From: Amphirosellinia nigrospora
Taxonomy: Eukaryota; Ascomycota; Sordariomycetes; Xylariales; Xylariaceae
Reading direction: 5' to 3'
DNA: 64,000 nt
NCBI GenBank assembly: GCA_004123355.1
Contig: SCHM01000001.1
Location: forward strand, 11,170,193-11,234,192
Position 1 is the first letter of the stretch, and each line of letters begins with the position of its first letter. This document shows positions 30,180 through 32,249 of this stretch, one piece after another. The position numbers and the translations under genes were made by a program. Under the pieces are notes generated by a model. It did no database searches and was not told the origin of the DNA. It saw only the letters and a program-made list of their open reading frames with translations.

Positions 30180-32249
30180 CTAAGCCACCGCCACATGCCC
30201 GCTTTCAAGATGAATTTGACTACGATTATAAACCCTAGCCTGCATCTCATCAAGTGGAAATATGCAAGTTTTGCGGCGACCATGGAATGAAATAGTTTCA
30301 GAGAAGCTCATGCCGAATTGGGTAGAAATGCCAAGTATAATTTCGCAGATGGTGCGATACATTCGGTGGACGTAGGAATCGTGTTCGTTTGGCAAATGCA
30401 TGAATCGGCAGCGTCCTCCTAGATTCGCCTTATTATTCACAACGGGCCCTGATAGTCTTTCTCTGTACAGTGTATATTCCGTATTTGGACAGTAATATGG
30501 TTTTGGTTCATAAATTAGAACTTTTTTGCACGCTGCGGGCTGTGACAGGTTATGAATTACCCTTTGCACCTGCTCACCATTCCGTGTTCCATTAGGCATT
30601 TTGTCAACCTCTTGAAGTGCCCTGGTAGCAGACCCTCCTAACTGGATACCTTCTGACCCATTCTGATAGGCTTTATCGCTTGTAACTACATCATATATGC
30701 CACGATCGTGGCTGTGATTCTTCTTTCGTCGTAAAAGCCTAACTAGTGGCCATAAAGTGGGTATTGTTCCAACGATGATAATAACGTCCATCTACGAAGG
30801 AGTTAGTTAATTAGCCCTGGCATACAGCCGTGTCGCCTGGAAGTCGGCAAGATTATGGATGCTCACTTCGGCCCTATTTGATAAGCGTATTAGTGATCAA
30901 AGGTTTCAACATTGAGGTGTAGAGTTTCAATCGCTTACGTATACTGCGTGTAGAGGAACACATTAGTCGAGGACTCCAAGTCTCACATCATTAAAGTTAC
31001 TGATCATACGATATGAAGAGAATATGGGATTAGACACGAGAGTTTCCATACGTACCCATAATGTAATGGGTGACCAATACCATGTGATGTCCGCACTGTA
31101 AAAAGTATGTGTCAGGACTCGCCGCCTATAGCAAAGATGTGACTCTTTTTTCGGGAATTCGGAAGCATTCAAGGGCAAATGGGGGCGCGCAGTCGCAGTA
31201 TCTCTGCTAAAAGGAGGAATGAAGAAAATCGGAGTACGTACTGTTTGTCTAAATCCTTGAGTAAGTATATCTTCACAATCGTAGCACCGGCTGCACTATT
31301 TGAGACGTTAGATAGTTTCCGGTGTGCGATTGAACCGTGACGGACAAGATACTCCCTCCCATCAAGACCGATAAGCCGATCTTCATTCTGCTAGTAATCC
31401 TGAGCTGTGTAATGAATAAAGCCGGAAAGACGGCTACAACAATATCCACAAGGGCGTTATATGCTGACTGAATAAAGCCTACGTATCGTCTATTTCTCTT
31501 TCATTAGTTTTGAGCAATAACACTCACCATGGGGTGCGGAAGTTAACGGAACATACTGAAGCTCTGGGTCGAGACAGCTTCCCGGGAGCCAGGGCTCCCA
31601 TTGTTTCTGAGGCGGGTCACAGAAGCGAATTATAAACACTATCGCAATGACGTTAAAGGCGACCAGTAAGGCGCACAGTCCCCAGAGGAAGTAGAGATGC
31701 CATTTCTTCGCTGACATTCCCACCAACCGAATGAGGAATATCAGAATCGATATCTTACTACTGGTGGAAGATATGATAGAGAAAGCCGGGGCGAGAATGG
31801 TATACTTAATCGCTTCTGTGAGGTCATGTGGGTTTCTTATTTCTGCTTGGTGCTTCCCCAGGCCGTAGGAAGCACCAATAGTCACGAGGGACGAGCATAC
31901 GAGAGCAGACAACTAGGGAAATTTCCGTCAGCGCCTCTAGATCATTATTATAGAGCGTGATAGTCTCACAGATCCAAATACCATGAAGAAATCATCCCAA
32001 CCTGTTTGCTTCATGAACACTATATAATACACCAACTGAATTAGTATTCTTAGTAAGAAAGCCGGAGAGAGTGGAGCAGATCTCGACCCCTTGAAGCTAA
32101 AGCTTCTAAATAGGTTCCGATTATCAATATTAGGAAAATCGGCACATACATGTCCTTCCAAGAATTCTAGCGATGGTAATAACGAGGACTAGGCCAGTGA
32201 GAACCCATGACACGACGTTCAGAGTTGCTACATAGTCAGTCTCCGCCAT
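30180..32249 (-). CDS. Seven-transmembrane fungal rhodopsin-like integral membrane protein with micro-exons
   Basis: This belongs to the large fungal rhodopsin-domain membrane family (PF20684-like). Seen: helix 1 (VVSWVLTGLVLVITIARIL), the family signature QTGWDDFFMVFG (near residue 40), further helices (LSALVCSSLVTIGASYG, LYFLWGLCALLVAFNVIAIV), a Cys pair around QWEPWLPGSCLDPEL, ATIVKIYLLKDL, and the last helix LWYTAEMDVIIIVGTIPTLW followed by basic RLLRRKK and a long polar tail. Nine exons are needed: 32150-32249, 31970-32019, 31528-31912, 31353-31478, 31242-31290, 31056-31095, 30939-30943, 30867-30873 and 30180-30791. They sum to 457 residues with no frame error. Exons 7 and 8 are 5 and 7 bases. 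Ligand unknown. The gene starts opposite the methyltransferase gene. Confidence 0.82.

Follow-up and report, generated by a model that had tools for sequence, protein, structure and literature searches.

Two predicted micro-exons in a fungal rhodopsin-like gene, the smaller most likely left by insertion of an introner-like element beside an older intron

Introner-like elements of Dothideomycetes are homologous introns found in different genes, and three of them are placed 1, 8 and 3 nt from sites at which other species have regular introns (PMC4457414). Sister stwintrons and cropped sister introns of the Hypoxylaceae, one of the cropped introns being 93 nt long, are described as repeated and seamless at new positions (PMC8469720). 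The microexon of Xlr2 in Trichoderma virens is functional, its inclusion or skipping acting as a switch (PMC11121469), and the constitutive single-nucleotide exon of Arabidopsis APC11 demonstrates that such exons can be spliced (PMC4674806). A micro-exon made by an introner was not reported in the part of the open-access literature that was covered.

Here we describe a gene of Amphirosellinia nigrospora, contained in a stretch of 64,000 nucleotides that was analysed as a whole (the window), for which we consider it very likely that two consecutive micro-exons of 5 and 7 nt are real constitutive exons of an intact seven-helix PF20684 gene, and that the 5-nt exon came from insertion of an element. 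Like the Dothideomycete elements, the element in the window has homologous introns in different genes, a likeness of behaviour; unlike the cases described there, the old intron and the element share one gene and lie only 5 nt apart, which leaves a micro-exon (PMC4457414). As in the Hypoxylaceae, the element is repeated and seamlessly inserted, but of 16 copies of its family 15 show no significant symmetry of their ends; a nested-donor reading of the stwintron kind is possible for the window gene, although it scores lower (PMC8469720). Xlr2 is comparable as a functional micro-exon of a filamentous fungus, but unlike that switch the window exons are predicted to be used constitutively, and either one by itself breaks the frame (PMC11121469). 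APC11 shares with the window gene an exon of very few nucleotides, here predicted to be constitutive as it is there; unlike the window gene it belongs to a plant, and the sections of its description that were consulted make no mention of introners (PMC4674806).

The window gene was assigned to PF20684 (Fung_rhodopsin) at 121.5 bits against a curated cut-off of 27 (Pfam, gene model with the residues YTAE), which bears out the fungal rhodopsin-like identity put forward in the first-pass annotation. Its family within the genome is large and diverged, a same-genome search with PF20684 returning 158 matches, counted exon by exon. The exon–intron model (Table 1) was produced with a self-written spliced protein-profile aligner, whose splice-site weights were set by hand and not trained; the profile was built from 30 paralogues with the window gene left out, and the aligner was given no information on the proposed micro-exons. 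At costs of 6, 8, 10, 12 and 14 per intron it selected introns 31055-30944, 30938-30874 and 30866-30792, that is, exactly the 5-nt exon TATAC and the 7-nt exon GGCCGAA; at a cost of 16 the whole C-terminal part of the domain was dropped. The upstream intron at profile column 120 has a weak donor (GTCCGT, -1.8 bits), and a phase-2 intron occurs at this column in 22 of the 30 profile paralogues. A candidate further short exon of 32 nt lies in the same gene (32001-31970, minus strand), bounded by introns 32149-32002 and 31969-31913 that were read by eye.

Table 1. Features of the PF20684 gene, in positions of the window
Feature	Position	Strand	Basis
Intron, phase 1, 64 nt	31464..31527	-	Spliced-profile alignment; position common to L094, L095
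Intron, phase 2, 50 nt	31296..31345	-	Spliced-profile alignment; profile column 120
Intron, phase 2, 146 nt	31096..31241	-	Spliced-profile alignment
Coding exon, end ...ADITWYWSPITLW	31056..31095	-	Spliced-profile alignment
Intron 1, 112 nt, introner-like element copy; GTACGT...CTAAT...ACGCAG	30944..31055	-	15-copy model match
Micro-exon TATAC, 5 nt (predicted)	30939..30943	-	Letters, aligner, plan ranking; upstream edge: element; downstream edge: paralogue intron
Intron 2, 65 nt, phase 2	30874..30938	-	Aligner; codon and phase as in L094, L095
Micro-exon GGCCGAA, 7 nt (predicted)	30867..30873	-	Aligner, splice-plan ranking
Intron 3, 75 nt, phase 0, directly after conserved Glu codon	30792..30866	-	Aligner; 0/38 resolved paralogues
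Last exon, MDVIIIVGTIPTLWPLVR... and C-terminal tail	30180..30791	-	203-aa open frame from acceptor

On the minus strand the stretch reads ...TTATGG/GTACGT...ACACGCAG/TATAC/GTAAGC...AAATAG/GGCCGAA/GTGAGC...TCGTAG/ATGGACG, slashes marking the exon edges. The placing of TATAC at 30943-30939 and of GGCCGAA at 30873-30867, as first proposed, proved exact to the base, and the letters agree with what had been said of the pair: together they add 12 nt coding YTAE, and the frame is kept when both are skipped and lost with either alone, 5 and 7 not being multiples of three. The branch-like sites also stand, with CTAAT, CTAAT and CTAAC in introns 1–3 at 19, 16 and 11 nt respectively from the A to the AG end. 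As had been suggested, YTAE restores the W-x-x-x-E pattern, which lies in the last helix.

The intron of 112 nt that precedes TATAC is, by its behaviour, a dispersed introner-like element, which the first-pass annotation had not recognised. A DNA search showed its bases 23–112, up to the intron end, to be 76% identical to a place about 238 kb away that is an intron of an OPT-transporter gene; aligned end to end, the window intron (112 nt) and the OPT intron (113 nt) were identical in 81 of 114 columns, with a score of 42, whereas none of 1000 shuffles scored above 0. Its core pattern was found at 24 genome places with up to 3 mismatches and the reversed control pattern at none, and the union of the pattern and further searches gave at least 33 distinct places that match the element, the window's included. 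A sequence model built from 15 aligned copies, excluding the window copy, had a single match in the 64-kb window at E≤1, at 31054-30944 (E=3.2e-18), ending at the acceptor. A GT donor and an AG acceptor were present at the repeat ends in 17 of 20 loci that were cut out, the window copy among them, as scored by a script that chooses the best-matching GT and AG; these copies measure 110–118 nt, and the other three (L044, L046 and L047) look degenerate. When the flanks of 10 copies were joined, 7 gave a Pfam match at E≤0.01 that extends over the junction, to the unrelated families OPT, P450 (three copies), DUF1996, Sugar_tr and SNF2, two of the seven being below the curated cut-off and two crossing the junction by only 3–4 residues; the joined flanks of the remaining three, L040 among them, had no Pfam match.

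Stable secondary structure is a feature of introner-like elements, and the consensus fold of this one over 15 copies is weak (-1.35 kcal/mol, 5 pairs). Terminal inverted repeats are present in some introner-like families only; here the terminal symmetry of 16 copies stayed within 200 shuffles per copy, save in L052, which exceeded its shuffles. Ascomycetes have been called an outlier for DNA-transposition signatures (PMC9860276). In 17 of 19 loci (the 20 less L044, the window copy included) the last exon base ahead of the element is G, suggesting a proto-splice-site preference. Two element copies lie 241 nt apart in the genome (L047 and L048, at G000:C1:3580423 and 3580664), the first being without the usual 3' end. 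Another copy (L050:1433-1546, plus strand) stands upstream of another PF20684 match, and a possible acceptor some 32 nt before this copy perhaps marks off another short exon.

Of 49 paralogues examined, 11 defied resolution across the micro-exon stretch. Among the 38 that were resolved, a phase-0 intron following the Trp column, where the element sits in the window gene, is present in none, and so is an intron at the site of intron 3. By comparison, L094 and L095 carry a phase-2 intron at the same codon and phase as intron 2 and are without the element: aligned to the window stretch, L094 reads TTGTGGTGGAC/GTAAGT...ATAG/TACTGAGGTG, its window counterpart being TTATGG(element)TATAC/GTAAGC...ATAG/GGCCGAA(intron 3)ATGGAC. 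A phase-1 intron at profile column 81 is also common to the window gene, L094 and L095. In two other paralogues, L010 and L078, a phase-2 intron interrupts the codon preceding that of intron 2, and a call of a 1006-nt intron in L025 was judged not credible. In a tree of 33 sequences, the columns of which were taken from the same spliced-profile aligner, the window gene, L094, L095 and L029 formed a clade (ultrafast bootstrap 99) in which the window gene grouped with L095 and L029 with support of 74; L029 is intronless over the region that was modelled. A joint search of the genome with introns 2 and 3 yielded no further match, a result that does not in itself establish their rarity. Given that intron 3 is without a counterpart in the resolved paralogues, the downstream edge of the 7-nt exon rests on frame and splice signals.

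Splice plans for the stretch were listed under the following limits: in frame and stop-free, the exon up to and including LW kept fixed along with the acceptor at 30792, introns of at least 40 nt, and no more than two internal exons of no more than 100 nt each. Thirty-four plans qualified; that with TATAC and GGCCGAA ranked first (-10.4) and is the only one to excise the element precisely from end to end, so that if the element leaves in this way both micro-exons are forced. The third plan (-18.7) uses TATAC with a donor at 31051, leaves the 7-nt exon unused and gives VLY; the fourth (-19.4) gains W-x-x-x-E by reading past the donor as VRMETL; both were rejected. When plans after element removal were allowed donors just upstream of or across the junction, with at most one internal exon, two weaker ones were added, and all three in-frame plans so listed use the 7-nt exon. 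The observed gain over a single 264-nt intron (6.35 bits) was reached in none of 400 dinucleotide shuffles, each of which permuted 232 nt inside the 264-nt stretch (best 3.2); one extra exon was found in 6 of the 400 and two in none. Pfam scores by variant were 121.5 bits for YTAE, 120.1 for SSTN, 111.6 for VRMETL and 108.0 with both exons skipped; SSTN being nearly equal to YTAE, Pfam backs the presence of four residues more than these particular residues. The aligner, the ranking of the 34 plans, the ends of the element and the paralogue intron position thus all support the originally proposed reading with two micro-exons, from which we infer the splicing.

That the window gene is a decaying copy in which this stretch is without productive splicing, a view compatible with the other readings, would fit a large and diverged family and the absence of intron 3 from the other resolved paralogues, but we regard it as improbable: the gene retains two open frames, one of 140 aa (31912-31490) and one of 203 aa (30791-30180), the aligned model is stop-free, and donors, branch-like sites and acceptors are recognisable in all three introns. 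Removal of the whole stretch as a single 264-nt intron (31055-30792) is in frame and has the second-best score (-16.8); it would leave the last helix four residues short at a loss of 13.5 Pfam bits, pass over the acceptor of an element that is complete at both of its own ends and disregard the intron position common to L094 and L095, and we give it little credence. Less credible again is a stwintron-like order, in which removal of the element creates a donor (G/GTATAC) and the product is LW-A-E-MDV with the 7-nt exon only. The junction does form GTATAC and the plan is in frame, yet this donor scores -0.57 bits against 4.03 for GTAAGC, the summed splice-site score is 10.8 against 15.4 and the product is two residues short. 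One other 12-nt exon in place of the two (30973-30962, SSTN) is most improbable despite its Pfam score, since the plan is fifth (-22.0), the exon lies inside the element and introns of 82 and 170 nt are needed.

For the two-micro-exon reading, L094 and L095, with an intron at the position of intron 2 and no element, point to an old intron, 5 nt ahead of which the element inserted, as the most likely origin of the 5-nt exon, and the simplest history would have the old intron first and the element second. The ancestral gene would have read LW-Y-T(AC/G)-A-E with one phase-2 intron, retained in the two paralogues; the 112-nt element would then have made a clean insertion at the border of the Trp and Tyr codons, 5 nt ahead of the donor of the old intron, leaving the 5-nt exon. 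A third intron after the Glu codon, seen so far only in the window gene, would leave the 7-nt exon. Every intron carries a donor, a branch-like site and an acceptor of its own. The introns are probably taken out stepwise, by intron definition, since two splice sites 5–7 nt apart are unlikely to be bound together, and the predicted product regains W-x-x-x-E in the last helix. In this account the letters, repeat identity, frame and paralogue intron position are direct observations; the splicing with its order, the constitutive use of both exons and the direction in which the gene changed are predicted from them.

A parallel case is found in L040, a beta-xylosidase-like gene whose product we take to belong to family GH3. 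Here (L040:1480-1734, minus strand) a copy of the element follows immediately, at 0 nt, on the acceptor of an intron of 145 nt that looks canonical and older, and the coding join over both introns matches the solved beta-xylosidase 7vc7 (3.4e-20). Two readings fit: a single long intron, or a recursive splice point, in effect a zero-length exon. L040 and the window gene make two cases among the copies looked at, too few to speak of a preference.

Micro-exons are hard to date and their births are seldom caught. At this locus the edges of the 5-nt exon are a repeat with sister copies on one side and a paralogue-shared intron on the other, from which the succession of events can be worked out. Insertion of an introner beside an old intron would offer a concrete route from an ordinary exon to a micro-exon. 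We tentatively suggest, while holding it somewhat less probable than its opposite, that in this genome insertions of the element family into or next to the sites of existing introns are frequent enough to generate micro-exons, and even zero-length exons (recursive splice points), repeatedly, and hence that the spread of introners is a source of fungal micro-exons. Micro-exons made in this way may escape standard annotation.
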